Source: Pseudomonadota bacterium (GTDB lineage: Bacteria > Desulfobacterota > Desulfobacteria > Desulfobacterales > Desulfobacteraceae). Taken from it: 36,329 nt of DNA. Numbering within the stretch: position 1 is the stretch's first letter; each line of letters opens with the position of its first letter. The notes beneath the pieces were generated by a model. It was not told the origin of the DNA. It ran no database searches and worked only from the letters and a program-made list of their open reading frames with translations. The DNA lies in the NCBI GenBank assembly GCA_018812385.1, contig JAHJDU010000072.1, positions 1-36,329 on the forward strand. The letters run 5' to 3'. The position numbers and the translations under genes were made by a program. Positions 5,395 through 36,329 of this stretch are shown here, in pieces.

Positions 5395-5430
5395 GGTGAT
5401 TTTACCGGCACGCCATCTTTACGAAAAAAA

Positions 5431-9107: not shown

Positions 9108-9192
9108 TTGATTAAACTGGCGCACCAGAGAGTTCAGCCTTAATATATTTTTAAAAGAGTAACCCCTTAAACTTTTAACAGGAGGTAATCTA

Positions 9193-10734: not shown

Positions 10735-10736
10735 CT

Positions 10737-11681: not shown

Positions 11682-11683
11682 TT

Positions 11684-12541: not shown

Positions 12542-12542
12542 C

Positions 12543-14547: not shown

Positions 14548-14593
14548 AATATTGAATTGGCATATACAAAGGAAAACATAACGGAGAAATACC

Positions 14594-16153: not shown

Positions 16154-16227
16154 TAAACCTTTCAAGGCGGCAGTAAAGCAATACAACTTTCCTGCCGCCC
16201 CGGTCACCTAAAGGATATGCGTTTACC

Positions 16228-17403
16228 ATGAACATACAGCAGCAGATATCAACTTTCCTAAAAGAGCGCAAAACAGACATGTTAACCCTTTTAAATGAGC
16301 TGGTCTGCATCCAGAGCGGTACAAAAAATAAATCCGGCGTTGACAGGGTCGGCCAGGTCATTCTCAGGGAAATGAAAGCCCTGGGATTTACCTGCGAACA
16401 AAAAAAAGACAGTGATTTCGGGAACCATATCATTGCAAGATCCCCAGGATTTGATTCCGGGAAAAAACAGGTCCTGATTACCGGACATATGGATACGGTT
16501 TTTCCCCACGATACGGGCTTTAATTTTTTCAAACAGGATCATAAAAACTGTTATGGCCCGGGTGTTGCTGACATGAAAGGGGGGCTTGTTGTGGGAATTT
16601 TTGCCCTAAAATCCCTGGTCCGTGCCAATTTTATGCATAGGCTGCCCGTTACCTTCATATTTAATTCTGATGAAGAAATGGGGTCTCCAAGTTCACGATC
16701 TCTCATTCAGAATGAAGCCCGAAAAAGTAAAATAGCCTTTGTCCTTGAGGCCGGCGGACTGAACGGGGAGATTGTCACCGGCCGAAAAGGGAATGTATCT
16801 GTACAATTGGATGTTACCGGAGAAGCTGGACACGCTGCCTTTGCCGGTATTCACAAGGCCAGTGCCATCCTGGAACTTGCCCATAAAACAATTGCCATTG
16901 AAAAATTGAATGCCCCCCAAAAAGGCATTTCTGCCAATGTAGGTATGATTGCAGGTGGAATTGGTCCCAACACTGTACCCCAGCATGCAAGTGCCAGAAT
17001 TGATTTTAGATTTTTAAAATCAACCGATCAAAATGACTTGGAATCCGGTTTTACATCTATTTGCAATCAAATAATTATCCCGGGAACCTCTTCGACAATG
17101 ACGATTGTATCCAGCAGGCCGGCCATGCCAGAGACAAAAAGAAACCTGGCCGTGTTCCAAAAAATTCATAAACTTGCAAAAAGCCTTGACATTCAAATCA
17201 TTTCTGAATTGCGACAGGGGGTTTCAGATGCAAACCTGATTGCCTATGAGGGGATTCCTGTTATTGATGGATTAGGACCAATTGGTGCCAAAGATCACAG
17301 TGAAGACGAATACATTCAAACAAAGAGCTTATTTGACCGGTCCGTATTGTTCGGCAATATTCTTGCGAACTTATGCTTAGATTTAAAATACAAAAGGGTT
17401 TAG
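16228..17403 (+). CDS. M20 family metallopeptidase (CPG2/ArgE-DapE-like)
   Basis: LITGHMDTVFPHDTGF, YGPGVADMKGGLVVGIFAL, NSDEEMGSPSSRSLI, C-terminal IGAKDHSEDEYI. Confidence 0.93.
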   Translation: MNIQQQISTFLKERKTDMLTLLNELVCIQSGTKNKSGVDRVGQVILREMKALGFTCEQKKDSDFGNHIIARSPGFDSGKKQVLITGHMDTVFPHDTGFNFFKQDHKNCYGPGVADMKGGLVVGIFALKSLVRANFMHRLPVTFIFNSDEEMGSPSSRSLIQNEARKSKIAFVLEAGGLNGEIVTGRKGNVSVQLDVTGEAGHAAFAGIHKASAILELAHKTIAIEKLNAPQKGISANVGMIAGGIGPNTVPQHASARIDFRFLKSTDQNDLESGFTSICNQIIIPGTSSTMTIVSSRPAMPETKRNLAVFQKIHKLAKSLDIQIISELRQGVSDANLIAYEGIPVIDGLGPIGAKDHSEDEYIQTKSLFDRSVLFGNILANLCLDLKYKRV

Positions 17404-17766: not shown

Positions 17767-19422
17767 CTATCCCCAGCTCCAGTCCTGAATATTCCATGTA
17801 ACATCAGTAACATAAGGATTAACTTCATATCCCTTGAGATCAGATTTTTTCCCATAGATAAAAACATAAGCAAAAATTGGAGCAAAAGGTACATCTTCAT
17901 GAAGAATTTCCTGAATTTTGTCATAAACTTCTTTGCGTTTTGCCATGTCTGAAATCAGCACACCCTGTTCCAGAAGTTTATCCAGTTCAAGATTTTCGTA
18001 TTGTACATAATTGGAACCAACTCCATGCTTTACTGGAATTTGTTTTGAGTGGCACCTTGCTGTGTAGTCGGGATCCATTCCAACGGTTGGTTCCCAGCCC
18101 ACCATAAGAGTATCGAATTGAGATTTAGTTGTATATTCGCCCCAGACAACTGATGCCGGCATATTTTTAATTTCCATGACTACACCGATTTCTTTCCAGT
18201 TTGACTGAACCATTGCTTCAGCCTGTTCCCTTGCCTTTGCACCGGCAGTAGTTGACATGGTAAATTTTAGTTTTACACCGTCTTTCTGGCGAATGCCGTC
18301 TGAACCGATTTTCCACCCTGCTCCTTCAAGCATTTCTGCAGCTTTTTTTAAATTAAACCCCGGGTCCTTTATTTTGCTGTTGTAGGCCCAATGGCTGGGA
18401 TGCAGATAAGATAATGTTCTGGGAGGAAGTCCATATTGAACATCATTTATCCATTTTTCCTTGTCACAGGCAAGGTATAGAGCCTGGCGGACAATTTTTT
18501 CTTTGAACTGTGGCTTACCACAGTTAAAGTAAATAAATTCAACCCATGGTTGGGGTGTTTTCAAAGAATCACGATTAAGGAGTGTTTTTGCCTCTTCAAA
18601 TCTTTCCGGCGGCACACCATGCAGTCCAAACACATCAATTTCACCGGTTTTAAACTGGGTGTATGCAACAGTCTGGTCGGGAATAAATTTATGAACAACT
18701 GTTTCTATGGCTGGCTGACCTCTATGATATTCAGGATTCCTTTTATATATCATATGACTGCCTGCCACACGTTTGTCAAGAAGGTAAGGTCCTGTGCCTA
18801 TGGGGTTCATGTTAAAAGCAGCAGTGTTGATATCCGGTACTTTGGATAAAATATGATGGGGTACGATGTGCATTTTTTGCCATGCCCAGGCAAAAGGAAC
18901 AAAAGGTTTTGCCAGGCTTATTTCCACATTGTAATCGTCAATTATCTTAAAATCAGAGATAAGATCAAATCCTGATCGGGATCTGATGGCGACCTTGGGA
19001 TTAATAATTGTCTGATATGTAAACTCCACATCTTTTGCATTGAAGGGAGCCCCATCATGCCATTTAATCCCCTTTTTAAGCTCTATTTTCCACAATTTTC
19101 CATCTGAAGATATTCCACCATTTTCAAGTGTGGGAACTTTAGCTGCCAGATTGGGGATAAATTCTCCTAGATGGTTCACATCCCAGAGCGCATCAAACAT
19201 ACATGCTTCCGGAACTTCTTCGGTTCCGGAGTTCACATAGAGAAGTGGATTAAAATTTACAGGTTCCTGGGTCATACCCACAATAACACTTTTTTTGGCA
19301 GCCCATGCAGGGTTTGTTATACCCAATACGCTGCCTGCGATTACAGTGGAAAAGGCTACATAACCTGTTGTCTTCATAAACTCTCTGCGCGTAAAATCGG
19401 ATGGTTTAGAATCTTTCATCAC
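17767..19422 (-). CDS. ABC transporter substrate-binding protein, family 5, with Tat-type signal peptide
   Basis: N-terminus DFTRREFMKTTGYVAFSTVIAGSVLGITNPAWAAKK (twin Arg); KWHDGAPFNAKDVEFTYQTI; PIGTGPYLLDKR. Confidence 0.94.
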   Translation of the reverse strand: MMKDSKPSDFTRREFMKTTGYVAFSTVIAGSVLGITNPAWAAKKSVIVGMTQEPVNFNPLLYVNSGTEEVPEACMFDALWDVNHLGEFIPNLAAKVPTLENGGISSDGKLWKIELKKGIKWHDGAPFNAKDVEFTYQTIINPKVAIRSRSGFDLISDFKIIDDYNVEISLAKPFVPFAWAWQKMHIVPHHILSKVPDINTAAFNMNPIGTGPYLLDKRVAGSHMIYKRNPEYHRGQPAIETVVHKFIPDQTVAYTQFKTGEIDVFGLHGVPPERFEEAKTLLNRDSLKTPQPWVEFIYFNCGKPQFKEKIVRQALYLACDKEKWINDVQYGLPPRTLSYLHPSHWAYNSKIKDPGFNLKKAAEMLEGAGWKIGSDGIRQKDGVKLKFTMSTTAGAKAREQAEAMVQSNWKEIGVVMEIKNMPASVVWGEYTTKSQFDTLMVGWEPTVGMDPDYTARCHSKQIPVKHGVGSNYVQYENLELDKLLEQGVLISDMAKRKEVYDKIQEILHEDVPFAPIFAYVFIYGKKSDLKGYEVNPYVTDVTWNIQDWSWG

Positions 19423-19480
19423 TTAAATCCTCCTTACTTATTGTTGAGTGTCTGTCCAATTTTAAGTCGAACGAGACGGT

Positions 19481-20392
19481 TTATGTCCACATTTTTAAAC
19501 GAGGGTCCAAAGCATCTCTTAGACCATCACCTAAAAAGTTAAAGCTCATAACTGTTAATGTTATCATGATGCCAGGCAAAATCGCCAGCCATGGGGAAAG
19601 ATCGAAATAAGCCTGGGCATTGGTTAACATATTTCCCCAGCTGGCAAGTGGCGGTTGAATTCCGTAACCCAAAAAGCTTATATAAGATTCCATCAGCACT
19701 GCATTGGCTACATTTAAGGTGGCTGATACAAGAACTGGAGCCATGGCATTGGGCAATAGTTCTCGAAACATTATGCGGCTGCCTGAAGCCCCTAAAGCAA
19801 AACTTGCTTCAATAAAATCCTGTTTTTTAATGTATTGGATCTGAGCTCTGATGATGCGAGCCACCTCCATCCACGAGGTAAATCCTATTATCAGGGCGAT
19901 TGATAGTACAGTTGGCGTAATAAAGGCCGCAAGAATCAGAAGTAAAAAAACCTGGGGAAAACATAAAATGGTGTCTGTAAAACGCATGAGGATACTGTCT
20001 ATCTTCCCACCGTAATAGCCTGAAACAAGCCCTACCAATAAGCCTGTTACAACAGTTGCAAACATTGCAGCTATGCCGACTATAAGACTTATTCTTCCTC
20101 CATGGAGCAGTCTTGCAAAGGTATCACGCCCCATTTCATCAGTCCCGAGAATGAAATGGGTATCTGTAAAGGGCTCAATAAAGCGGCGTGATGTGTCCAG
20201 GTCCAATGGATCATGGGGCGATATAAGGTTTGCAAATACAGCACTGATTAAAAGGATTAAAACGATGCATCCGCCTATAACGGCTAATCTGTGGTTTGAG
20301 AAACGTCTCCACAAGCGTTGAAGTTGCGTTTCATAGAATTCAACAGATTCGTTTTTTTGGGGCAGCGACAATTTTGATGGGCTATTTTTCAT
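19481..20392 (-). CDS. Dpp/Opp-type ABC permease (DppC-like)
   Basis: LGTDEMGRDTFARLLHGGRISLIVGI, FIEASFALGASGSRIMFRELLPNAMAPV, LGDGLRDALDPRLKM. Confidence 0.95.
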   Translation of the reverse strand: MKNSPSKLSLPQKNESVEFYETQLQRLWRRFSNHRLAVIGGCIVLILLISAVFANLISPHDPLDLDTSRRFIEPFTDTHFILGTDEMGRDTFARLLHGGRISLIVGIAAMFATVVTGLLVGLVSGYYGGKIDSILMRFTDTILCFPQVFLLLILAAFITPTVLSIALIIGFTSWMEVARIIRAQIQYIKKQDFIEASFALGASGSRIMFRELLPNAMAPVLVSATLNVANAVLMESYISFLGYGIQPPLASWGNMLTNAQAYFDLSPWLAILPGIMITLTVMSFNFLGDGLRDALDPRLKMWT

Positions 20393-20425
20393 ATTATTTT
20401 TTTTAATTCCTGTTCATTCTCATTT

Positions 20426-21379
20426 TTACTCCAGCGCAATTCTTGGATCTAAAACCGCGTTTATTAGATCTGCAATAAGATTCCCAAAAATTACGGCAAT
20501 TGCAGTAAACATTACCAGCCCCATTAAAACTGGGTATTCTTTCATAGTAAGGGAATCCACAAAAAGTCTGCCCATTCCGGGCCAGCCAAAAATTGTTTCC
20601 GCAACAAGAGCGCCACTGAAAAGCCATGGTAATTGGACCCCGGCAAGAGCAATGAGAGGAGCAATGGCGTTTGGAAGAGCGTGTATGAACAGTATTTTAG
20701 ATCCTTTTATGCCTTTGGATTTAGCCGTACGGATGTAATCCTGGTGAATTACTTCAAGAAAACTTGATCGGGTATATCGGCTCCATTGAGCAACCAGTAC
20801 AAGGGCAAGCACAACAGTGGGAAGCACCAGGTGCCGAAACAGGTCAAAGAAATCCTCTTCACCGCCAAGGGTAAACATACCGCCGGACGGTAACCATCCA
20901 AGTTTAAGACTGAATATGTAGATTGCCATTAACCCGAACCAGAAAGTGGGAAATGACAGTGCAACCATTGCTCCGGTGGTGGCAAGATAATCAAATACTG
21001 AATAACGTTTAAAAGCGCCAAGAATACCAATACACATACCCAGGATTATTGCAATGCTCATTGCAGATCCCATTAATAGAAATGTAGCAGGAATTCTTTC
21101 TACAATAACGTCAAAGACTTGTCTGCCGCCAAAAAAAGTTGTTCCCCAGTTTCCTGTGAACATACCCGTTGCCCATTTTACGTATTGTATATGAATCGGT
21201 TGATCAAGTCCCAGTATGACCTTGATTTTATCAATATCCTGGGCTGTAATTGACGGATTTAATGTATATACAGAAAGAGGTCCTCCAGGCGCAAGATGCA
21301 TTATGGAAAAAGCAATTATGGATACTCCAATGAGAAGAGGGATAGCCTGCAGCGATCTTTTTATTATATATTTAAACAA
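20426..21379 (-). CDS. Dpp/Opp-type ABC permease (DppB-like)
   Basis: MFKYIIKRSLQAIPLLIGVSIIAFSIMHLAPGGP, DYIRTAKSKGIKGSKILFIHALPNAIAPLIAL, LINAVLDPRIALE. Confidence 0.95.
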   Translation of the reverse strand: MFKYIIKRSLQAIPLLIGVSIIAFSIMHLAPGGPLSVYTLNPSITAQDIDKIKVILGLDQPIHIQYVKWATGMFTGNWGTTFFGGRQVFDVIVERIPATFLLMGSAMSIAIILGMCIGILGAFKRYSVFDYLATTGAMVALSFPTFWFGLMAIYIFSLKLGWLPSGGMFTLGGEEDFFDLFRHLVLPTVVLALVLVAQWSRYTRSSFLEVIHQDYIRTAKSKGIKGSKILFIHALPNAIAPLIALAGVQLPWLFSGALVAETIFGWPGMGRLFVDSLTMKEYPVLMGLVMFTAIAVIFGNLIADLINAVLDPRIALE

Positions 21380-21429
21380 AAGCTACTCCTTAAAGCATAA
21401 AAAATTAACGCTTATCACTATGGATATTT

Positions 21430-22401
21430 TCAAAATTTCAAATGGCATGCTACAAAATGGTTTTCCTTTCCTACTTGCTCCAAATAAGGCTCGCTCTTAT
21501 CACATGGTTCAAAACGATATGGGCAACGTGGGTGAAATCTGCATCCTGAAGGAGGATTGATGGGCGATGGCACATCACCTTTCAGTATAAACCGTTTTTT
21601 TTTAAAATCAGGATCAAGAACCGGAATAGCGGAGATGAGCGCCCTGCTGTACGGGTGAAGAGGCTCTGCATAAAAGTCTGTACTCAATGCTTTTTCTACT
21701 ATTTTACCAAGATACATAACTGCAATTTCATCAGAAATATAGCTTACTACGCTGAGATCATGAGCTATAATGATGTAAGCTAAGCCTAATTCTTCTTGCA
21801 GATCTTTCATTAAATTAAGTATTTGGGCCTGAATTGATACATCCAGTGCTGAGACCGGTTCATCCGCTATTATCAATTCCGGATAAAGGGCAAGCGCTCT
21901 GGCAATGCCAATGCGCTGACGCTGGCCCCCACTGAATTCATGGGGATAACGGCGCATGGCTTCAGATGATAACCCAACTTTTTTTAAAAACCCTGAAATT
22001 TTGTCTTCCATATTTTTACCATCAGCTAATCCATGAATTTCTAAGGGAGCCGCAAGAATGGATCCAATAGTGTGTCTGGGATTGAGTGAGGAAAAAGGAT
22101 CCTGAAAAATCATTTGCATTTGACGTCTGACTTTTTTCATCTCCTGCCGAGTATATCCTGTAATATTTTCACCTTTAAAAAATATTTGACCATCAGTGGG
22201 CTCTATAAGTTTCAGAATAGTCTTTCCCATTGTGGTTTTTCCGCAACCGCTTTCACCAACCAGGCCTAAAGTACGTCCGGGTTTTACGCTTAAACTGACT
22301 CCATCGACAGCGTGCACATGATCTTTTGATTTGAAAAAGAAACCGGGTTTTACAGGGAAAAGTTTTTTAAGACTTTTAACTTCCAAAAGTTTCTCACTCA
22401 T
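21430..22401 (-). CDS. Dpp/Opp-type ABC ATPase (DppF-like)
   Basis: [47 protein letters not shown]-terminal oligopeptide domain [15 protein letters not shown]. Confidence 0.96.
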
Positions 22402-22434
22402 TTATATTCTCCATTTCCACTGCATAATGCCTTA

Positions 22435-23433
22435 TTACGCTCTGTTTTGCACTATCCAACACCGAACATTATGATTGTTTTCGATATTAAGAAGTCTTGG
22501 TTTTTCTAATTGGCATATTTTTTCTTTGACATGACATCGATTAAAAAATGCGCATCCTTCAGGAAGATAGCACAGGTTTGGCACAATGCCGGGAATTTCT
22601 TGTAACCGGGTTGCTGAATCAATTTTATTGATTTTAGGAACAGAATTCAAAAGCCCTTGAGTATATGGGTGAAGAGGATTTTGAAAAATCGTTCTTACGT
22701 CCGCTTCTTCCACTATTTTTCCTGCATACATGACAGCTACTCTATCTGCTGTTTCTGCAATAACACCGAGATCATGGGTTATTAAAAGGATGCTTGTATT
22801 CAGTTTGTCTTGAAGGCTAAGCATGATATCCAGGATCTGTGCCTGAATTGTTACGTCAAGAGCTGTGGTAGGCTCATCAGCTATTAGTAGTTCCGGATCA
22901 CAGGCTAAAGCTAAAGCGATCATTATTCTTTGCCGCATTCCGCCGCTTAGCTGATGCGGGTATTCCTTTGCCCGCTTTTGGGGTAAAGAAATGCCAACCA
23001 TGTTCAAGAGCTCAATGGTCCGGTCACGGGCTTCTTTGGCAGTTATATCCAGATGGTTGATCATAACTTCATCTATCTGGAACCCTATGGAAAGTACAGG
23101 GTTCAGTGAAGTCATAGGTTCCTGGAAGATCATTGAGATAGATCGTCCTCTTATTGTGTTAAGCTCCTGTTCTGTCATTTGCAGCAAATCGTGATCTTTA
23201 AAAAGAATTTGACCTGAATGGAACTCAGCAGGAGGGATGTCAAGCAACTTTAAAATTGATAGAGCAGAAACTGTTTTGCCACATCCGGATTCACCCACAA
23301 GTCCCAATGTTTCTCCATGGTTAATATTGTAGGATACGCCGTCAACAGCTTTTGCCAAACCTTCTTTAACATTAAAATAGGTTCGTAAATCTTTTACTGA
23401 GAGCAGAATGTCTTTTTTGGGAACCATAATCAC
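22435..23433 (-). CDS. Dpp/Opp-type ABC ATPase (DppD-like)
   Basis: [64 protein letters not shown]. Confidence 0.96.
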   Translation of the reverse strand: MIMVPKKDILLSVKDLRTYFNVKEGLAKAVDGVSYNINHGETLGLVGESGCGKTVSALSILKLLDIPPAEFHSGQILFKDHDLLQMTEQELNTIRGRSISMIFQEPMTSLNPVLSIGFQIDEVMINHLDITAKEARDRTIELLNMVGISLPQKRAKEYPHQLSGGMRQRIMIALALACDPELLIADEPTTALDVTIQAQILDIMLSLQDKLNTSILLITHDLGVIAETADRVAVMYAGKIVEEADVRTIFQNPLHPYTQGLLNSVPKINKIDSATRLQEIPGIVPNLCYLPEGCAFFNRCHVKEKICQLEKPRLLNIENNHNVRCWIVQNRA

Positions 23434-24934: not shown

Positions 24935-26392
24935 CTATTTGCAGGTAAGCTCTTTCTCTCCTTGCATTTTGATCCGTTCCAATTCAGTCAGAACTCCCTC
25001 TGGCAAGCTCATGGGCTTATGGGTTTCCAGGATACGTCTGATTTCCTCTCTGACGTTGGTCTCTACATCTTTGGAACCCTCATCTTTCCAACGTTCAAAA
25101 GGCTGACGAGTGAAAACCCTGGATCTCCAAAGCTCCTTCCGGAAATGTTTCATGGTATGCTCCTGCTGAAGATAGTGTCCTCCAGGACCCACCTTACGAA
25201 TGACATCCAGGGCCAAGTGCTCATCACTTACCTCAAAACCGCTTAAAAATCTTTTAGCCATACCAATGACATCATTACTCATAACCAATTGTTCGACACC
25301 ACAGGCCATTGACATGTCCATATATCCAACATCATGAATAAGATTCAGGCCTGACTGACCCTGGGCTAAAATATGAAAAGCTGCTTCTGCTCCGGCCTGA
25401 GCATCCAGACATTTGGCATCTGTTGCCCCTGCCAATCCCCAGGTGGGCAAGCCCAGGGATTGAGCCACTTCGGCCTGGGCGGCAAGCGCCAGGCTCATTT
25501 CCGGAGAGCCGATGCTCATCAACCCCTGGGCCATGTCCAGAATGCCGAAGTTGCAACCAAGCCCTACGGGGCAACCCTGGCGGCGCAATTGGGCCACGAC
25601 TACACAAAACATCGACTCTGCCACACCCTGTGCCACGGCCCCGGCCATGGTCACCGGCCCGGTCGCTCCCGGCTGGATGGTTGGTCCCATCATTTGGGGC
25701 AGACCTCTATCGGCTGCGATTAAAATCCTGTCAGCCACCTCTGCCGGCATGATCAATGGTGAAATCGACTCTGGATAGAGGACCAGGAAAGGTTTCTCCC
25801 TGAGTTTGTCCATGCCGCCGGCCACCTCAGCAGCCATATCATAAATCAACTCAGTCCCACGGGGAGAGTAGGCTAAAAAAACGATCGGCTTGGTTGTGTG
25901 GGTTACAGTGGCAAAGAATTCGTGCAATTCAGCAGCCATGGCTGGTACATCCTGGGCCGATCCCATGGGCATGACCCAATCAATATTCTCAAGCGCATCA
26001 GCCACCTTGGCTGCACGTGCCAGATCTTCGACCCGGGTTTTGTGATATTCACCAGTAAGGGCATCCTTGGTATTCGGACTGGCCGTTGAGGTTCCATAGT
26101 AGCTGTTTCGACCGGAAACATCCAGTGCCCGATGGCCTTGTCGATCAAAAAGACTCCACCCCTTTGGCGCAGAGGATAGGCAGCCTTGAACAATAAACTC
26201 CGGTACCTTGACGGATTCACCCTGAACGATTGCGCCTGCCGACTGAAGCATTTTGCGTACTCCGCCATGCAAAACCTTAAAGCCGACTTCTTCCAATACT
26301 TTGAAAGCAGTTCGCTTGATTCTCTCAACCTGATCTTCGGTCAGCATCCGAAACTGTGGACTGGCCTTCAAAGTAGTATTTGTCTGTATCAT
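24935..26392 (-). CDS. Trimethylamine methyltransferase family (MttB superfamily), non-pyrrolysine member
   Basis: LTEDQVERIKRTAFKVLEEVGFKVLHGGVRKMLQSAGA, GPTIQPGATGPVTMAGAVAQGVAE, SPEMSLALAAQAEVAQSLGLPTWGLAGATDAKCLDAQAGAEAAF, VGPGGHYLQQEHTMKHFRKELW. Continuous ORF with no in-frame TAG. Confidence 0.92.
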   Translation of the reverse strand: MIQTNTTLKASPQFRMLTEDQVERIKRTAFKVLEEVGFKVLHGGVRKMLQSAGAIVQGESVKVPEFIVQGCLSSAPKGWSLFDRQGHRALDVSGRNSYYGTSTASPNTKDALTGEYHKTRVEDLARAAKVADALENIDWVMPMGSAQDVPAMAAELHEFFATVTHTTKPIVFLAYSPRGTELIYDMAAEVAGGMDKLREKPFLVLYPESISPLIMPAEVADRILIAADRGLPQMMGPTIQPGATGPVTMAGAVAQGVAESMFCVVVAQLRRQGCPVGLGCNFGILDMAQGLMSIGSPEMSLALAAQAEVAQSLGLPTWGLAGATDAKCLDAQAGAEAAFHILAQGQSGLNLIHDVGYMDMSMACGVEQLVMSNDVIGMAKRFLSGFEVSDEHLALDVIRKVGPGGHYLQQEHTMKHFRKELWRSRVFTRQPFERWKDEGSKDVETNVREEIRRILETHKPMSLPEGVLTELERIKMQGEKELTCK

Positions 26393-26472: not shown

Positions 26473-27798
26473 TTACGCCTTTGTTACTTTTGTTTCCTTG
26501 AATTTGATATCCCTGGTCTCAAGCTCTGCAAGCAGTGGATCATAAATCTCTTTGTAAATCGGGATTATCACTCCATGGTGATTTATTTTCCCCTCTGCTA
26601 CCATTTTTGCGGCTATGGCCACGGGCAGTCCAACGGTTCTGGACATGGAGCTGTCCCCACCAGGAATTCCCGTATTAATCATTGTGGATGTTATCTTCTC
26701 TTGTCTTCCATCAGGATATTTGGCAGTAAATTCATGATGCTGCACAAGAAGATCCTTTTCATTCTTATTATAGACAAGTTTTTTTTGAAGTATGTGGGCA
26801 AACATATCAAAGACAGAAGCCGTACCAATATTTATTTTTTCCTCATTAAAAAGACCCAGCCATTCGAGTTTTTTAAGTATAAGAGAATGTTCCGGAATTT
26901 CCAGGTAACGGGCAACATCTTTTATGACTTCAAGCCCTGGGCTTTTGACAATCTTTGCCAATACCTGTACGGGTGAGACCTCATTAAAATCAAACATGAT
27001 TTTTTGATTTAAAAGGCCTAATTTTTTAAAGTAATCCCATGTTTCACAGGAGCCGATATTCCGCAATGTACCCCGAAACATGTTCTTTACCGAGTTTATC
27101 CCGTAAAGATCCATATAGGGAATTGCATCCCGGTTGACATAGGCTTCAAAAACACCGGCCCCGGGAATGGTGATCAAATCATAATGCCTGAAAAGATCCT
27201 GTCCTGATACATTTATAATCTTGCCATCCAGAAGATAACGGCCGTCATTGTTGGCTGCAAGCATCACGCCATCAGGACTCCATGAAAATTTATATCCCAG
27301 AGGATTGTTATTGTTTTCAGGGGCAGGAAGTCCTCCGCAATAGGAGGCAAAACTTGTAATTTCACCCCCGGCTTCTTTAACCTCATTGATTATTTTCATT
27401 GCCGCCATATGGTCTATGCCAGGATCTACGCCCATTTCATTGAGAAACACAAGATTTTTCTCCCTGGCTTTTTCATGGAACGTCTGCATCTCTTTTTTAA
27501 CGTATGAAGCGGTTATCAGATGCTTGTTAAGCTCAAGACAAAAATCTGCAATCACTGGGTGAAAAATCCATGGAAGAAGGCTGACAACAACATCTGAATC
27601 TGCAATGGCATTCTTAAGGGATAGTTTATCATTCACATCAAGACAGATTGCATTTCCGCCTGGATTGTCTCCCACAAGTTCTGCAGCCTTGTTTTTAACC
27701 TGGTCTGCCACTGTAACGTAGAATTCCGACTGATTCAGCAAGTATTGAACAGCAGGTTTTGCAACCAGTCCTGCACCTATAATTAAAATTTTCTTCAT
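26473..27798 (-). CDS. Saccharopine dehydrogenase family (LYS9-like), paralog 1
   Basis: MKKILIIGAGLVAKPAVQYLLNQSEFYVTVAD, NEMGVDPGIDHMAAMKII, SYCGGLPAPENNNNPLGYKFSWSPDGVMLA, GIPGGDSSMSRTVGLPVAIAAKM. Confidence 0.93.
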   Translation of the reverse strand: MKKILIIGAGLVAKPAVQYLLNQSEFYVTVADQVKNKAAELVGDNPGGNAICLDVNDKLSLKNAIADSDVVVSLLPWIFHPVIADFCLELNKHLITASYVKKEMQTFHEKAREKNLVFLNEMGVDPGIDHMAAMKIINEVKEAGGEITSFASYCGGLPAPENNNNPLGYKFSWSPDGVMLAANNDGRYLLDGKIINVSGQDLFRHYDLITIPGAGVFEAYVNRDAIPYMDLYGINSVKNMFRGTLRNIGSCETWDYFKKLGLLNQKIMFDFNEVSPVQVLAKIVKSPGLEVIKDVARYLEIPEHSLILKKLEWLGLFNEEKINIGTASVFDMFAHILQKKLVYNKNEKDLLVQHHEFTAKYPDGRQEKITSTMINTGIPGGDSSMSRTVGLPVAIAAKMVAEGKINHHGVIIPIYKEIYDPLLAELETRDIKFKETKVTKA

Positions 27799-27824: not shown

Positions 27825-29213
27825 TTATCTTTTTTTGGGTGATCCTGAATCCAATTTATGCCCCAGGATATTGGAAAGACTGCGCACATCATAATTTTCA
27901 ATCTGTTTTACATTATCCACGATCCTGGATGCAATATTGGAAAAAGAGTTTTGATCCGCTATACGGTTTATTTTGTTCTCAATCATTCCCATGTCCATGG
28001 GGTTTGCCGGGTCACCCAAAGGAGTTTTAACAAATTTTTCAAAATCTCCTTTTATTGAATGTATCACAATCCTGGCAGGAGCAAAATCCGGAAACAGACT
28101 GGTGAGTTCCAGATCCTCATAAAGCCTTATCTTTTCAGCAAAAAATATAATTTCTTTTCTGTGAATGAGATCAGGTTTCATGGGACAAAGCGCCTCTTTT
28201 CCTTCCACTGCAGCAACGGCCATGGAGTATTGGACACTATACTGTGCTCCCTCAAGGGTTTCAGGGCAGGTCTGGTTTGTCAGCATAAGCGCTCTTTTAA
28301 ACAGAAAAACATCAATGCCTGATATCTGTTCTTGTTTCAGATCATGGATATCCATTAAAATCAAAAGCGCATCAATTGCACTGTGAATCCAGCGGCAGCA
28401 GGCATAGGGCTTAAAATATACATTTTCAATGGCATAGTTTTTCCCAAAGCCTGAAATTATTTTTTTGGAATCATAAAACCCTGGATGGTCAAGAATGTCC
28501 AGGGGTCCTGAATAATTATTCCTGGCAAGCATAAGTGCTGAAAGTCCGGTTACCGTTGACCAGGGAATCCCTTCTTTAACATTGTTGCCCATGATTTTAC
28601 TATACCCGGAAGCGGATAATTCAGGCGCCTGAACGCCGGCAATGGATATTGCCTGGGCAAGTTTATGGGGGGAGAGTTTATACAACCAGCCACCAGCAGC
28701 AACAACCCCATATGGACACCATTTGCCAGAGGATAGTGTATCAAGTTTTTCATGATCCCTGGCCGATGCCACTCTTACTGCAATTTCATAGCCAATGACC
28801 ACTGCAGTAAGAAAATCTATCCCACTGGCATTTATCTCTTCAGCCACGGCCAGTGCTGCAGGAATTATGGCGGCTCCGGGATGGCCCATGGCCTTGCGAT
28901 GACCATCATCCAGGTCAAGGGCACTGGCAAAACTGCTGTTAACATAAGCTGCTCCCGGGGCATTAAGAGACTCTCCTGAGAACCATACAGAAGAAGTTCC
29001 CGTGGAAAACAGATCTTTTGCCATATCTTTGGCAGCCTTTGATGAAACCATTTTAAATCCTGCCAGAGAAGCTGCTGCAATATCAATAATACATTTTTTT
29101 GCTGTTTCAAATGCTGTAGCGGGAATCATATCCGGAGAAAGACTGGATATGAATTCTGCCAGAATTCCGGTTGTAAAACCGGATGATTTTCTTGATTTCA
29201 AAACAGGTCTCAT
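27825..29213 (-). CDS. MmgE/PrpD family protein
   Basis: AAYVNSSFASALDLDDGHRKAMGHPGAAIIPAALAVAEEINASGIDFLTAVVIGYEIAVRV; CCRWIHSAIDALLIL. ATG overlaps the upstream SDH stop (TAATG). Confidence 0.92.
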   Translation of the reverse strand: MRPVLKSRKSSGFTTGILAEFISSLSPDMIPATAFETAKKCIIDIAAASLAGFKMVSSKAAKDMAKDLFSTGTSSVWFSGESLNAPGAAYVNSSFASALDLDDGHRKAMGHPGAAIIPAALAVAEEINASGIDFLTAVVIGYEIAVRVASARDHEKLDTLSSGKWCPYGVVAAGGWLYKLSPHKLAQAISIAGVQAPELSASGYSKIMGNNVKEGIPWSTVTGLSALMLARNNYSGPLDILDHPGFYDSKKIISGFGKNYAIENVYFKPYACCRWIHSAIDALLILMDIHDLKQEQISGIDVFLFKRALMLTNQTCPETLEGAQYSVQYSMAVAAVEGKEALCPMKPDLIHRKEIIFFAEKIRLYEDLELTSLFPDFAPARIVIHSIKGDFEKFVKTPLGDPANPMDMGMIENKINRIADQNSFSNIASRIVDNVKQIENYDVRSLSNILGHKLDSGSPKKR

Positions 29214-30535
29214 TATAACTTTGTTGTTTTCCGTTTGAAATATAGGCCCAAATCTTTCATCTCTTTTAGCACAGGGATGTATATTTCAGAAGACAGGGGA
29301 CGATGCACTCCCTTGGCCTTTATTTTGCCATTAAGAATAAGTTTGGATGCAATGGCAGCTGGCAGGGAAACAGCCCTTGACATGGCAGAGTCTCCCCCGG
29401 GGATACCCTTGACAAGCATGGTACCACTCCTTTTTTCCTTGTGACCCGGGAATTGGGCAATGATCTCATTGGCAACAATAACCATATCTTTTTCATCCGG
29501 TCCATAGGACATTTTTTTTAACATGAGGTTCACAAGGACATCTGCATTGGTTCCCCTGGAAATAGAAATTTGATTATCATCAAACAGACCCAGCCATTTG
29601 AGCTTTTCAATGGAGTTTGAATCTTTTTCTATCTTGAGAAAATCCACAGCCTTATGCAAAATATCGTCCCCTGAATCAGCTCCCATGAGAGATGCTGTAA
29701 ACTGAGCATAGCTTGTTTCCTTAAATTCTTTTTCCTGGGTATTGTCCAGAAGGTTGAGCGCTATCATTGCATTCATTGTGCTGCACCATCCCGGGAACCG
29801 CAGGACTCCTCTGTATATGGAAACATCATCATCCAAACCAAAATGTTTCACATATCCTCTGCAATCGCGGTTGGGATAGGTTTCAAAGCTTCCGATCCCT
29901 TCCAGATCCACAGGTCTGTGGTGATGGAATAGTTCTTTTGCAGGCACATCGATTTTTTTCCCGTTTTTAAGATAAACCGCCGGAGTCTTGGCTGCCAGTA
30001 TCACACCCATGGGGCTCCAGGAAAACTTATAGCCAAAGGGATTATTATTATGTTCAAAAGAAGGGAGGCCTGCGCCATAGGATGTGAGACTGATAACTTT
30101 ACCATTCAGGGCTTTGATTTCATCTATCATCTGTTTGGCACCCATATTATCCAGCCCTGGATCTTCACCAATCTCATTTAAAATCAGGATATCCCTGTTT
30201 TGGGCTTCAAAATCCAATTCATCCATCTGGGGGCTGATATAAGAAGTTGTCACCATGTTTGTTTTATGCTTTAAACAAGCTTTTGCGACGGGGATATGCA
30301 TGTAAGGAGGTATCATGCTCATCACCAGATCAGCATCACTCACTATTTTGTCTAAAAGATCCAATTGATCTATTGTCCAGCAGACAGCTCTGCCTCCGGG
30401 CCTGTTGTTAATTAATTTTTCAGCTTCATCTTTTTTTATGGAAGTTAGTGTTACTTCATATCCGCATTTATCAAGAAAGTAATCCACTGCAGGTTTTGTC
30501 ACAAAACCTGAACCAAGAACTGCTATTTTTTTCAT
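29213..30535 (-). CDS. Saccharopine dehydrogenase family (LYS9-like), paralog 2
   Basis: MKKIAVLGSGFVTKPAVDYFLDKCGYEVTLTS, NEIGEDPGLDNMGAKQMI, SYGAGLPSFEHNNNPFGYKFSWSPMGVILA, GIPGGDSAMSRAVSLPAAIASKL. Confidence 0.93.
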   Translation of the reverse strand: MKKIAVLGSGFVTKPAVDYFLDKCGYEVTLTSIKKDEAEKLINNRPGGRAVCWTIDQLDLLDKIVSDADLVMSMIPPYMHIPVAKACLKHKTNMVTTSYISPQMDELDFEAQNRDILILNEIGEDPGLDNMGAKQMIDEIKALNGKVISLTSYGAGLPSFEHNNNPFGYKFSWSPMGVILAAKTPAVYLKNGKKIDVPAKELFHHHRPVDLEGIGSFETYPNRDCRGYVKHFGLDDDVSIYRGVLRFPGWCSTMNAMIALNLLDNTQEKEFKETSYAQFTASLMGADSGDDILHKAVDFLKIEKDSNSIEKLKWLGLFDDNQISISRGTNADVLVNLMLKKMSYGPDEKDMVIVANEIIAQFPGHKEKRSGTMLVKGIPGGDSAMSRAVSLPAAIASKLILNGKIKAKGVHRPLSSEIYIPVLKEMKDLGLYFKRKTTKL

Positions 30536-30581
30536 TAATTATTTTTTCCTGTATTTTTATATTTTATCGGGTTCTAACATA

Positions 30582-30598
30582 GTGATCAGTTGATACAC
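30582..30598. promoter_or_regulatory. Near-palindromic candidate operator GTGATCAGTTGATACAC
   Basis: Inverted core ATCA-GT-TGAT flanked by GTG...CAC, in the short gap between the XRE-DctP gene and SDH paralog 2. Confidence 0.35.
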
Positions 30599-30615
30599 AA
30601 AGGCACAATTCCTTG

Positions 30616-31785
30616 TCAGCAGGCATTTTCCATCTCCTGCCAGGCCTGTTTGGACAATATCCCCTGATCCATCATCTTTTTTCTGATTTCAAACATTTTA
30701 AGATGCCAGGGAAGCTTATCCACTTTAAGGTAAGCTGCCCCATAACGGCTGAGATTTAATTTTTCATTCTTTTTTTCCAATAAAACCACATTATGGGAAA
30801 AAATTTCTCCTGCACTGTCACAGGCTTTTTCCAATGAACTTTGAATATCAGGGGAAAAAGATTTATACTTTTCTTCTGAAATAAAAACTCCCAGAATACT
30901 GGGAATATCTCCCAAAAGGGTAACGTACCTTGCATATTCGCAATACCCGTTATGATAAAGCAGGGCTTTCATGGTGGGCAATAAATCCACTTTATGCATT
31001 TTTAAAGCTTCATTGACTTTTGACCAGGGTATAGTTACCGGAATTGCACCCATGTTTTCCCAGAATTTTGCAAGCACATCGGATTCATATACCCTTACTC
31101 TCAACCCTTTAACATCTTCCGGAGAAATAATGGGTTTGCGGGAAAGAAGAACCCTTTCCATGCCACGCATCCAGTTCCAGTTGGGGTTTAATAATCTAAT
31201 ACCATTTTTTAATAACTGGTTAATAACGTTTTCTTGAAAATAACGTGTCTTTAAAAATGCCTGCCTGTTTTCTTCGCTTCTGAAACAATATGGCAGGATT
31301 AAGTGTTTTAATGAAGAGGCCATTGATTCAAATAATTCAATTACTTCTATAAAAAGATCCAGGTTTCCCCTGAACCCATAATTGATCTGATCGGTAAAAG
31401 TTCCAAATTGGAACGGACCCATCGGGTTCAAAACAACAGCGCCATTAGTATAATCTATGATTTCTCTTGAAAACCAATGCAGTCCCTGGTTTTCAAGCCC
31501 TGCCACTGCACTGATAATATGTTTTTCCGGAAATGATTCCTCGTCTGCTTGAAATAAAAAATTTAAAGGAGTTTCCAGAATACTGCAAAGCTGGGTCAGA
31601 TTTTTTATGGATATGGTGGCTTTACCGTTTTCAATTTTTGAAAGCTGTCCCTGGGAAATGCCTGCCTTTGATGCAAGGGTTACTGTATTAAATTTTTTGT
31701 TACTGCGCAATTCCCTGATTTTTTTCCCCACATTTTCCTGAATTAAAGCTTCCTTAACGACCTTGTCAATTATATACCCAGGCAT
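30616..31785 (-). CDS. XRE-family HTH regulator fused to a TRAP transporter substrate-binding (DctP) domain
   Basis: HTH: VGKKIRELRSNKKFNTVTLASKAGISQGQLSKIENGKATISIKNLTQLCSILETPLNFLF. DctP-like: RKPIISPEDVKGLRVRVYESDVLAKFWENMGAIPVTIPWSKVNEALKMHKVDLLPT. No TM segment or signal peptide between or before. Confidence 0.9.
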   Translation of the reverse strand: MPGYIIDKVVKEALIQENVGKKIRELRSNKKFNTVTLASKAGISQGQLSKIENGKATISIKNLTQLCSILETPLNFLFQADEESFPEKHIISAVAGLENQGLHWFSREIIDYTNGAVVLNPMGPFQFGTFTDQINYGFRGNLDLFIEVIELFESMASSLKHLILPYCFRSEENRQAFLKTRYFQENVINQLLKNGIRLLNPNWNWMRGMERVLLSRKPIISPEDVKGLRVRVYESDVLAKFWENMGAIPVTIPWSKVNEALKMHKVDLLPTMKALLYHNGYCEYARYVTLLGDIPSILGVFISEEKYKSFSPDIQSSLEKACDSAGEIFSHNVVLLEKKNEKLNLSRYGAAYLKVDKLPWHLKMFEIRKKMMDQGILSKQAWQEMENAC

Positions 31786-31824: not shown

Positions 31825-33018
31825 TTAATCTAATTCTTCAATCCTGTGATCCATCATTATTCCGCGTTTTTTTATTTCCTCAATAAATTCAAGGGGAGGG
31901 ACATGTTTCACAGGAGATAACACACCTGGCTGGGTAATTTTTCCTTCAAGGATCATAAGTGCGCCAATACTTGAGGTAAAGCCAACCGTTCGGTTCATGG
32001 CAAAAAGTCCTGTTTCAAGATCCCTGTAATCAAGAAGATCATAGGTGATTTTCACCTTTTTTCCCTTTTTAATCCCCCAGGCCTCAACCCTTAACAGGGC
32101 AAGATCCCTTTCTGTTTTTCCAAATTGAAGTCTTGGGGTGAGCCAGTTGGTAAGAAAAGCCCTGGGTGAAATATCAGCATTATTTATTTTAACGGTATTG
32201 TCTTCCAGAAGACCAAGATCCACCATGGTTCGCCAGAATCTTGAATGCCCCGGCCATCTTAAGGCAAAGCGGCCCATCTCCACAAGTTCTTTGCCCAGAC
32301 CAAAAATTTCCACATATCTTTCCGAATCCCCGTTGGGATATGCTTCCACAGCTCCAATGCCAGAGAACTCAATCTCATGGATATTCTCTTCTCTAAAAAT
32401 TTCATTGCCCGGCACAATATGAAGTTTACCGTTTTTGATAAGCCGTCCTTCACGGACATAAACGGCCAGCACCCGGTCAAAAATCCAGGAAATCTTATAT
32501 TTAATAGGACTGTTATCAGCGCATTCTGGAGCCGGCACCCCTCCGCCATAGGAGTACAACCCATGGACCTCATCAAGTTCGTCAATGGCAAGACGTCCCA
32601 TGACAAGGTCAATCCCGGGATCAAGCCCCATCTCGGGAAGAATAATGACACCTTTTTCCCTGGCAAGATCATCCAATACCTTTAAATCATAGGTGTAGTT
32701 TGAGCTTACAAAGGGAATCCCCGCATCAAGTGCAGCCCTGGCAGCTGTCAATGCCAGCTCAATGGGCAGCATACAGATAACCACATTGAGATCCAGGCGT
32801 AAAAATTTTCCTGCCAGATCCTTTTCTTTTAATATATCCAGCCTTATGGTTCTGGTTTTGGAATATCCCATTTTATTCAAATAATCATTGCCATGAGTCA
32901 GGCTGGTATCACTTTCAAAAATATCAGCAGCAAAAATCTGGCGGATAATTTTACTTTGTTCCAGATCATGGATAACAGCTCTGCCCTGTTGTCCCATGCC
33001 AAGTACAATCGCTTTCAT
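31825..33018 (-). CDS. Saccharopine dehydrogenase family, shorter divergent paralog 3
   Basis: MKAIVLGMGQQGRAVIHDL, LPEMGLDPGIDLVMGRLAI, SYGGGVPAPECADNSPIKYKISWIFD, MNRTVGFTSSIGALMILEGKI. Confidence 0.9.
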   Translation of the reverse strand: MKAIVLGMGQQGRAVIHDLEQSKIIRQIFAADIFESDTSLTHGNDYLNKMGYSKTRTIRLDILKEKDLAGKFLRLDLNVVICMLPIELALTAARAALDAGIPFVSSNYTYDLKVLDDLAREKGVIILPEMGLDPGIDLVMGRLAIDELDEVHGLYSYGGGVPAPECADNSPIKYKISWIFDRVLAVYVREGRLIKNGKLHIVPGNEIFREENIHEIEFSGIGAVEAYPNGDSERYVEIFGLGKELVEMGRFALRWPGHSRFWRTMVDLGLLEDNTVKINNADISPRAFLTNWLTPRLQFGKTERDLALLRVEAWGIKKGKKVKITYDLLDYRDLETGLFAMNRTVGFTSSIGALMILEGKITQPGVLSPVKHVPPLEFIEEIKKRGIMMDHRIEELD

Positions 33019-33077: not shown

Positions 33078-34001
33078 TTATAAATTTTTCAATCTTGGAT
33101 CCAATGCATCCCTCAGCCCGTCTCCAAGGAGATTAATTGACAGGATTGTCATCATGATAGCAATACCTGGAATGGTAACAAGCCACCATGCATCTGTAAT
33201 ATATTCACGTCCCTCTGCAAGCATTCTTCCCCATGTGGGCATTGGAGGCGGAGTTCCCATGCCAAGAAAGGAAAGCCCGCTTTCCCAGATAATAATATTG
33301 GCAACCCTAAGAGTAGCAAGAACAATCAAAGGGGAAATAACATTGGGAAGGACATGGCGTAAAATAATGATTAAATCCGGTGTGCCTATGGCCCTTGATG
33401 CTTCCACAAACTCCTTTGTTTTTATGGAAAGAACACTTCCGCGAATCGTTCTGGCATAGGTAACCCAGTCAGAAATTCCAAGTACAAGAATAAGATTGAA
33501 AATTGAAGGACCCAACACGGCAATAACGGAAATGGTAAGCAGCATAAAGGGATACGCCATGAAAACATCTGCAATGCGCATGATAAAATGGTCGGTTTTC
33601 CCACCATAATAGCCGGAAACAAGGCCTAGAAATATTCCAGCAACGGATGCCACTAAAACTGCTGAAAACCCGACCAAAAGAGAGACCCTGCTGCCATAAA
33701 GCAGTCTTGAAAGAATGTCCCGCCCAAGATTGTCTGTGCCAAGAAGATGTTGCCAGGTGCCGCCCTCCTGCCAGACAGGTGGTGAAAACCGTGCCAGAAG
33801 GTCCTGGTCAAGGGGATCGATATGAAAGACAAGGGGAAATAAAACACTGGTCAGCAGAATGAGTAAAAGAAGGATTCCTCCCATCATGGCGCTGGGACGT
33901 TTGAGAATATCCTTCAATATTTCAAAGGCCCTGTTTATATTGGGCAAAAAATCTTCAAACATGTCGTCTATAAATTTTGATTTTGAATCTTTTGATTTCA
34001 T
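33078..34001 (-). CDS. Dpp/Opp-type ABC permease (DppC-like)
   Basis: LGTDNLGRDILSRLLYGSRVSLLVGFSAV, FVEASRAIGTPDLIIILRHVLPNVISPLIVL, LGDGLRDALDPRLKNL. Confidence 0.95.
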   Translation of the reverse strand: MKSKDSKSKFIDDMFEDFLPNINRAFEILKDILKRPSAMMGGILLLLILLTSVLFPLVFHIDPLDQDLLARFSPPVWQEGGTWQHLLGTDNLGRDILSRLLYGSRVSLLVGFSAVLVASVAGIFLGLVSGYYGGKTDHFIMRIADVFMAYPFMLLTISVIAVLGPSIFNLILVLGISDWVTYARTIRGSVLSIKTKEFVEASRAIGTPDLIIILRHVLPNVISPLIVLATLRVANIIIWESGLSFLGMGTPPPMPTWGRMLAEGREYITDAWWLVTIPGIAIMMTILSINLLGDGLRDALDPRLKNL

Positions 34002-34924
34002 TTTTCCTCGTAATAGCTTATCTGGGGATCCAGATATACATACAGGATATCAATAAGAAGATTTATTCCTACAAAGATGAAGGAAAATACAAAGACTATG
34101 CCCTGCACAAGGGGATAATCCCTGCCGAAAATTGCCTGTATCACAAGCCTTCCAAGTCCGGGCCATGCAAACACCGTCTCAATGATAACAGTGCCTCCAA
34201 TTAAAAAGCCAAACTGCATGCCCGCAACGGTAACCAGGGGAATGAGAGCATTTTTTAATGCATGTTTATAGATGACGACCTGCTCCTTAAGCCCCTTTGC
34301 CCTGGCCGTACGGATATAATCCAGACTCAGGACCTCCAGCATAACCGATCTTGTGAGCCTGGCAAACATGGCCATGAGGCTGAGTCCCAGTGATACTGCA
34401 GGCATGATGAGATGGGCAAATGTTCCCCTGCCCGATGTGGGCAGCCAGCCAAGATGGATGGAAAAAAAAAGCATCATCATGATTCCCAGCCAGAAATGGG
34501 GCATGGAAATCCCCAGTAAGGCGCCGAACATACTTCCCATATCAATCATGGAACCTCTTTTGACTGCCGAAATAATTCCCAGGGGAATAGCAAGAACCAG
34601 TGCAAATATCATAGCAGAAACGGCAAGCTCAAGACTTGCAGGAAGTCTTTCAATGATCAGTTCCATGACGGGTACATGGTAATATAAAGATTCACCAAAA
34701 TCGCCCTGGACAGCTTTTATGGCAAATCTTGCGTACTGGACATACAAAGGATCATTAAACCCAAGCTGCTCTCTGAGTTCCTCAATTTCCTGATCGCTTG
34801 CATCCCCGGGCAGCATCAGCATTACAGGGTCTCCGGAAAGATGGATAAAGAAAAAACTTATCATTGAGATGCCCACAATTACGTAAGCCGTGTGCCATAG
34901 TCGTTTTAATATATACCTTAGCAT
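33998..34924 (-). CDS. Dpp/Opp-type ABC permease (DppB-like)
   Basis: MLRYILKRLWHTAYVIVGISMISFFFIHLSGDPVMLMLPG, DYIRTARAKGLKEQVVIYKHALKNALIPLVTV, LYVYLDPQISY; 4-bp overlap with the next permease. Confidence 0.95.
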   Translation of the reverse strand: MLRYILKRLWHTAYVIVGISMISFFFIHLSGDPVMLMLPGDASDQEIEELREQLGFNDPLYVQYARFAIKAVQGDFGESLYYHVPVMELIIERLPASLELAVSAMIFALVLAIPLGIISAVKRGSMIDMGSMFGALLGISMPHFWLGIMMMLFFSIHLGWLPTSGRGTFAHLIMPAVSLGLSLMAMFARLTRSVMLEVLSLDYIRTARAKGLKEQVVIYKHALKNALIPLVTVAGMQFGFLIGGTVIIETVFAWPGLGRLVIQAIFGRDYPLVQGIVFVFSFIFVGINLLIDILYVYLDPQISYYEEK

Positions 34925-35009: not shown

Positions 35010-36329
35010 CTAATTTTTGGGTTTTGCCCAATACATATTAAGAAAACCGTCCCTGTCCCCTTTATAGGAGACCTTGTTTGAGACACCGAATACTTCAGGA
35101 ATTACATAAAGATATGCCCAGGGGCAATCTTCATAGAGCAGGTGATCAAGTTTATTGTAAACCTTGGCCCTGTCGGTGCGATCAAGTATGGTTCTTCCAA
35201 GATCCAGAAGCATGTCAGCACTCTTGTTCTTATAGTAATAGTCCCGGCTTTCTGAATGAAATAAAGAGTACATATAACGATCCGGCTCTGGAGCATCATC
35301 CCACCAATACATATACATCTGATGTTGTTTGCCTTTATACCGTTCCCACATAACTGCTCTTTCAAAAGGTTCAAGCGTTACCTTTATTCCTGCCTTGGCA
35401 AGGTTTGCCGCAATGGCTTCAGCCTGTTCCTGGATCTGGGACATATAGGTTGGATAAGCAAGACGGACTTCAATTCCATTGGGGTGCCCTGCTTCCGTAA
35501 GAAGGGCCTTGGCTTTTTCAGGATCAAAAGAATAAGGTTTCAGATCAGGTGCACTGCCGAATGTCCTGGGGCTGATAGCGCCGTTACAGATAATCGCCTT
35601 TCCATCAAAAAGAGCCTTGTTGATAAGTTCACGGTCAATGGCATGGTTTACTGCCTGCCGTACCCTGACATCATCAAAGGGAGGAGAGTAGGTATTCAGA
35701 CCAATATAGGGCATTACACCCATTTGAGAGGTGAGATAGGCTTTGCCGGATTCTTCAATACTTTTTCTTTTGTGAACCGGAATTCCGCTCACCACATCAG
35801 CTTCTTCCGTGAGAAGTGCCGCAACCCTGGCAGAAGCTTCAGGAACAGTTTTAAAAATAACTTTTTCATAATAGGGTTTGGATGCATAATACCCTTCAAA
35901 GCGCTCAAGGATTACGGAATCACCCCGGATCCATTTTTCGAGTTTGTAAGGACCGCAGCCAATGGGATCAGTATTGAATTTTGTATCTCCGACTTCTTTG
36001 ATGTAATCAGGCGGAACAATGGGCAGATAGATGGCCAGCATATAAAGGCCGGGTGCAAAGGAATTTGTTGTCTTGATTTCAAATGTTAAGTCATCAATGA
36101 CCACTATTTCACTAAAGGCTGAAAGTTTTCCCTTGTGCGGAGACTTGATTTCAGGGCTTTTAATTCTGTCAAATGAAAATTTCACAGCCTGAGCATTCAC
36201 AGGTTCGCCATTATGGAATTTAATTCCCTTGCCCAGGGTAATTCTCCAGGCCAGGTCGCTGATCTGCTCCCATTTTTCTGCAAGAGCAGGTTTAACAGAT
36301 GCATCTTCCTGGGGGTGGAACAGCGTGTC
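35010..36329 (-). CDS. ABC transporter substrate-binding protein, family 5, 5' end beyond the window
   Basis: The frame stays open past the listed start to the window edge: DTLFHPQEDASVKPALAEKWEQISDLAWRITLGKGIKFHNGEPVNAQAVKFSFDRIK...DPIGCGPYKLEKW. Confidence 0.93.
   Translation of the reverse strand, partial: DTLFHPQEDASVKPALAEKWEQISDLAWRITLGKGIKFHNGEPVNAQAVKFSFDRIKSPEIKSPHKGKLSAFSEIVVIDDLTFEIKTTNSFAPGLYMLAIYLPIVPPDYIKEVGDTKFNTDPIGCGPYKLEKWIRGDSVILERFEGYYASKPYYEKVIFKTVPEASARVAALLTEEADVVSGIPVHKRKSIEESGKAYLTSQMGVMPYIGLNTYSPPFDDVRVRQAVNHAIDRELINKALFDGKAIICNGAISPRTFGSAPDLKPYSFDPEKAKALLTEAGHPNGIEVRLAYPTYMSQIQEQAEAIAANLAKAGIKVTLEPFERAVMWERYKGKQHQMYMYWWDDAPEPDRYMYSLFHSESRDYYYKNKSADMLLDLGRTILDRTDRAKVYNKLDHLLYEDCPWAYLYVIPEVFGVSNKVSYKGDRDGFLNMYWAKPKN

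Follow-up and report, generated by a model that had tools for sequence, protein, structure and literature searches.

The locus analysed here raises the question whether a single polypeptide that joins a DNA-binding domain to the receptor domain of a TRAP transporter is a genuine regulator and, if so, which genes it might control, what it might sense and where its sensor came from. The protein is encoded on a contig of 36,329 nucleotides from a genome of the Desulfobacteraceae; this whole stretch is referred to as the window.

Architecture of the XRE-DctP protein

The gene extends over positions 30616..31785 on the minus strand and is a single open reading frame with an ATG start and 389 aa (P0001). 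A sequence-only reading had described an XRE helix-turn-helix followed by a DctP domain without stating the strand, and the Pfam profiles confirm this order: HTH_19 covers residues 20-80 (E=1.8e-11, 44.2 bits, cut-off 30.2), HTH_3 residues 23-77 (E=2.9e-9, 37.3 bits, cut-off 23) and, C-terminal to them, DctP (PF03480, SBP_bac_7) residues 100-339 (E=1.3e-30, 107 bits, cut-off 23.4), all three scoring over their gathering thresholds. On the minus strand the XRE/Cro helix-turn-helix (residues 20-80) is encoded at 31546..31728, the putative recognition helix QGQLSKIE (residues 45-52) at 31630..31653, a flexible linker (residues 82-93) at 31507..31542 and the sensor domain (residues 100-339) at 30769..31488. 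Solved TRAP receptors are matched by the protein in phmmer searches with a best E-value of 3e-19. A structure prediction, which the sequence-only reading had proposed, was made with AlphaFold2 in a run that took in eight fusion sequences. The model (pLDDT 83.9, pTM 0.70) contains the recognition helix as a helix and drops below a pLDDT of 50 in the linker, and Foldseek found its fold to resemble solved TRAP receptors (target-normalised TM about 0.87; E=1.6e-20 to 4o94).

No signal peptide or transmembrane-like stretch was seen in the fusion when judged by hydropathy, without a dedicated signal-peptide predictor, in agreement with what had been read from the letters. The maximum over 19 residues is 1.26 and the N-terminus is occupied by the helix-turn-helix, whereas by the same measure two ordinary DctPs from the sister group reach maxima of 2.1-2.2 in their N-terminal regions. 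It therefore seems very improbable that the protein is still a secreted TRAP or ABC transport receptor with an incidental HTH-like N-terminus, as NCBI-type annotation has it. The TRAP receptor model NF037995 does score 83 on the fusion (cut-off 50) and the Mesorhizobium homologue is named dctP, but, besides the hydropathy profile, a genuine HTH over its gathering threshold, an operon without DctQ/DctM and the presence in that operon of an SBP5 receptor for the ABC transporter all speak against transport.

That the protein is a real fusion of an XRE helix-turn-helix with a DctP domain and not an artefact is confirmed. The source assembly is a MAG of 664 contigs, which could give rise to a chimera or an assembly error, but we consider this probability negligible and the artefact reading refuted, because the same architecture recurs in independent assemblies, among them those of complete Mesorhizobium plasmids and of Desulfospira joergensenii DSM 10085. 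A frameshift that would separate the two domains, a concern raised before, was not found either, and the complete architecture is kept in the ortholog of Ca. Desulfobacula maris, which is 88% identical (HTH 89%, DctP 88%). Between these two genes dN/dS is 0.18, and judged by this comparison the fusion appears to be under purifying selection with both domains equally constrained.

Solute-binding Pfam families are known, according to a review, to serve also as sensor domains in transcriptional regulators (PMC9602780). DsvR, for example, consists of an N-terminal HTH and a C-terminal SBP_bac5 domain (PMC13060122). The fusion, known here from sequence, resembles SgrR and DsvR as a presumed cytoplasmic one-component regulator whose C-terminal sensor has a transporter solute-binding fold. 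Those regulators, however, have a winged HTH and SBP_bac_5, whereas the fusion has XRE/Cro (HTH_3/HTH_19) and DctP PF03480, and operon, predicted operator and likely ligand differ as well; by its domain matches it falls outside the SgrR type on both domains. With TRAP receptors of the SiaP type it has the fold and the carboxylate-ligand arginine in common; unlike them it carries an N-terminal HTH, is without signal peptide and has Thr in place of Asn187, and its main operon, unlike TRAP receptor genes, comes without a TRAP permease. Profile, fold and arginine identify the sensor as a DctP domain, and the protein is not a TRAP receptor. XRE/Cro regulators such as the XRE-cupin proteins have the same HTH family and the helix pattern SQxQLSKIENG, and their palindromic operator near the -35 box would have its counterpart in the predicted operator of the fusion, yet the sensor of XRE-cupin is a cupin and that of the fusion a DctP domain of roughly 290 residues. 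LacI, LysR and Bacillus Btr likewise re-use the periplasmic-binding-protein fold as a cytoplasmic sensor, though from other binding-protein classes and with other HTHs.

Distribution of the family and possible origin of the sensor

A survey of the architecture and its neighbours, also proposed in the sequence-only reading, yielded 17 distinct HTH+DctP proteins, mostly from Desulfobacterota, with one from SAR324 and others from Mesorhizobium plasmids, and an operon conserved in ten genomes. Identity to the window fusion is 88% in Desulfobacula, 55% in Desulfuromusa, about 40-45% in several Desulfobacterota MAGs and 41% in SAR324; remoter members are the Mesorhizobium plasmid proteins (29-31%), Desulfospira joergensenii (25%) and the divergent L096 fusion (24%). 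The fusion is rare: among 398 sampled genomes of the phylum 3 have it, to which the L096 fusion in G124 is added, and among 297 of the order 6 have it, one of them in three copies. Distant surveys took in, for a Rhodobacterales genome, 399 genomes from its phylum and 395 from its class, and 200 and 150 genomes from the phyla of a Peptococcaceae and an Actinokineospora genome, respectively; full-length fusions were not found in any of these sets at thresholds of 1e-45 to 1e-55, which very divergent fusions could escape. The gene of Mesorhizobium japonicum pMLa annotated as dctP (WP_044552287; L099, 10010-11182) is an XRE-DctP regulator, and a plasmid of Mesorhizobium sp. 131-2-5 encodes the identical protein. 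H3-H6, L189 and L190 had been flagged as fusion-like by coverage or ORF length; H6, L189 and L190 were opened and proved to be ordinary DctPs. A published XRE-DctP or HTH-DctP regulator was not found in the open-licence full-text literature, and this absence is weak evidence because only open-licence papers were covered.

In a tree of the DctP domains 16 of the 17 fusions lie together on the same side of one branch (SH-aLRT 92), beside ordinary DctPs, and the L096 fusion is placed apart. From this position two independent fusion origins had been considered; we dropped this claim because a single clade of all 17 is not rejected by the AU test (p=0.46). The closest relatives of the fusion sensors are TRAP receptors. 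The locus L123 (5307-16033) holds a TRAP operon that includes DctM, DctQ, a hydantoinase/oxoprolinase and an SDH gene and has an XRE-DctP gene at each end; one of the receptors that neighbour the fusions in the tree is encoded in this operon, immediately next to a fusion gene. The arrangement suggests an origin of the sensor by duplication of a TRAP receptor. The L123 locus might be an evolutionary intermediate between regulator and receptor. At L131 a separate ORF of 204 aa with an XRE-like N-terminus (4955-5569) follows a TRAP operon whose DctP is a relative of the fusion sensors.

The conserved operon and its palindrome

The neighbouring genes listed next lie on the minus strand. Upstream are SDH1, a saccharopine-dehydrogenase-like gene directly adjoining the fusion here and in most relatives (31825..33018), OppC-type and OppB-type ABC permeases assigned by profile and by the relatives' loci (33078..34001 and 33998..34924) and an SBP_bac_5 ABC receptor (35010..36329), within which the contig stops. 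Its 5′ end continues on contig C416 of the same genome, which shares the last 311 bases (36019-36329) and bears the head of the operon. Downstream follow SDH2 (29213..30535), found at this place only in the two Desulfobacula genomes, an MmgE/PrpD-family gene (27825..29213), which in relatives with a preserved operon comes after the fusion directly or behind SDH2, and SDH3 (26473..27798), SDH2 and SDH3 being saccharopine-dehydrogenase-like too. The order oppD-oppF-SBP5-oppB-oppC-SDH1-fusion-(SDH2)-mmgE is common to ten genomes; this conserved operon and the palindrome that it shares are new here. DctQ/DctM permeases are absent among the main ORFs of the window scanned, as had been stated correctly, and TRAP linkage was seen in one relative, the L123 fusion adjoining its TRAP operon. 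Other fusions have different genes of an amino-acid type next to them: the SAR324 fusion adjoins Asp/Glu racemase-like and DAO genes, that of Desulfospira a branched-chain-type ABC system and an N-formylglutamate amidohydrolase, and that of Mesorhizobium genes for MmgE, an ABC transporter, an amidohydrolase and a peptidase.

Some further observations concern these neighbourhoods. AlaDH/PNT-like genes follow mmgE at L060 (10538-11842, where an AlaDh_PNT_N domain was found) and L062 (10527-11834), hinting at lysine-ketoglutarate-reductase or saccharopine-type chemistry. At L129 (11457-12449) the MmgE ORF ends in a reverse-transcriptase match, possibly a group II intron insertion. The window contains two more Opp-type ABC transporter clusters (7485-17403 and 17767-23433), one of them with gamma-glutamyltranspeptidase, radical SAM and M20 peptidase genes. 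Downstream in the gene run of the fusion lies an MTTB-family methyltransferase gene (24935-26392), perhaps a non-trimethylamine member since it scores 376.7 bits against a cut-off of 525 for TIGR02369 (trimeth_pyl). A small lone XRE HTH ORF of 101 aa (637-942) adjoins an aldehyde ferredoxin oxidoreductase gene.

We found a match to the palindrome AATATTCyTGnCArGAATATT, overlapping a TTGACA -35 box, upstream of oppD in each of the ten operons. The ten operon heads score 14-20 of 20 against a shuffle mean of about 12. With one strand read, the 0.21 Mb of fusion loci hold 8 matches of at least 18 and 12 of at least 17; for the 0.85 Mb of other loci the counts are 0 and 1, respectively. The Desulfobacula promoter sites are weaker (16 of 20, with ATGC instead of ATTC in the left half). 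The predicted site of the source genome, which scores 16 of 20, lies outside the window, upstream of oppD at G000:C416:2645-2659. The sequence-only reading had placed the operator at 30536-30615 or upstream of 33018, but the conserved palindrome is in neither region; within the window the only match, with one mismatch, is at 28518 inside mmgE, as chance predicts. In Mesorhizobium japonicum the fusion gene (L099) lies in a different operon and has two near-identical copies of the palindrome, one on either side. In the Desulfuromusa genome a pattern scan found two copies in an SDH-gene promoter on another contig (L178), a match to be expected because the fusion locus of this genome (L059) has its operon start cut off, which may lie there. 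The recognition helix is near-identical across the fusions whose loci have the palindrome and different in L064 and L096, at whose loci the palindrome was not found.

Not all of this signal need come from the fusion. The ten operon heads are orthologous and shared promoter ancestry therefore contributes to the conservation of the palindrome. Genome-wide counts with one mismatch exceed the reversed control even where a fusion is not known (12 against 1 in G052), and this background, together with the TTGACA inside the palindrome, indicates that similar words also serve other regulators or plain promoters. The matches G000:C89, which is inside a gene, and G645:C19 were rejected as targets, being without visible link.

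Since the predicted site lies over the -35 box of the regulator's own operon, we propose an autoregulated repressor that is released by a ligand in the cleft of its DctP domain. The fusion could instead be an activator or dual regulator of the same operon, with ligand-bound DctP aiding polymerase recruitment. The position of the palindrome alone would be compatible with this and two sites occur in each of L060, L126 and L178, but in several loci a consensus TTGACA -35 lies beneath the site and a plausible -10 follows at a distance of about 17 bp, which is the classical arrangement for a repressor, and we consider activation unlikely.

Putative ligand pocket and proposed mechanism

In a profile alignment to SiaP, Arg231 of the fusion (codon 31093..31095, minus strand) is aligned with Arg147, the carboxylate ligand, and Thr271 (codon 30973..30975, minus strand) stands opposite Asn187, which we take to be a ligand contact in SiaP. 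The sequence-only reading had rightly pointed out that the usual VDGQENP segment, in which Thr271 falls, here reads VDLLPTM. All 12 fusions that were aligned share Arg231. In SiaP this arginine selects carboxylates, and it is present in 96.8% of the DctP family (PMC4646407). The DctP part might nevertheless be a dimerisation or structural module without ligand sensing, the HTH being constitutive or partner-driven. The replaced Asn187 contact and the large divergence from TRAP receptors (about 25% identity) would fit such a module; given the invariant arginine, a DctP domain as constrained as the HTH and the complete receptor fold predicted, we regard it as improbable. For a sensing domain the neighbouring genes would make an opine-like carboxylate, or one derived from an amino acid, a likelier ligand than a plain dicarboxylate. 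Profile searches place the SDH genes of the window in the saccharopine dehydrogenase family, and iminodisuccinate epimerase belongs among the MmgE/PrpD proteins (PMC7347537); an opine or saccharopine-like N-carboxyalkyl amino acid is therefore a reasonable first guess, and a tentative one.

The sequence-only reading proposed a one-component regulator of the cytoplasm with a re-used TRAP receptor fold, tied to the SDH, MmgE and ABC genes, and on these points it is supported, with the carboxylate-binding arginine kept. We hold it to be probable that the fusion is a cytoplasmic, carboxylate-responsive and autoregulated repressor of the catabolic operon for ABC uptake, SDH and MmgE, and that its sensor stems from a TRAP receptor. 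We infer its DNA binding, repression rather than activation, dimerisation and ligand as follows. The protein would act as a one-component transcription factor whose XRE HTH, most likely as a dimer, binds the palindrome over the -35 box of its own promoter and represses. The DctP domain, having lost the signal peptide of the transporter receptor, would bind a carboxylate substrate or intermediate in the cytoplasm via Arg231; its lobes would close on the ligand, the HTHs would shift and the operator would be released, and the genes for uptake and breakdown would be induced jointly with the regulator.

For the family as a whole, we see an even chance that it is an undescribed one-component family whose sensor goes back to a TRAP receptor, probably a duplicate from a neighbouring TRAP operon such as that still present in L123; this receptor would have become a cytoplasmic sensor and would later have been recruited to control ABC operons for an opine-like carboxylate, one operator code being kept from Desulfobacterota to Mesorhizobium plasmids. 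The DctP/TRAP receptor would join the transport receptors that are re-used as intracellular sensors. The analysis also exposes a naming error: annotation models label XRE-DctP regulators as TRAP transporter subunits, and they are hidden in the databases because of this name. Predicted operator, operon and ligand-binding residue are offered here in one package, and the regulator could reveal which substrate sediment bacteria take up and degrade by this uncharacterised pathway.
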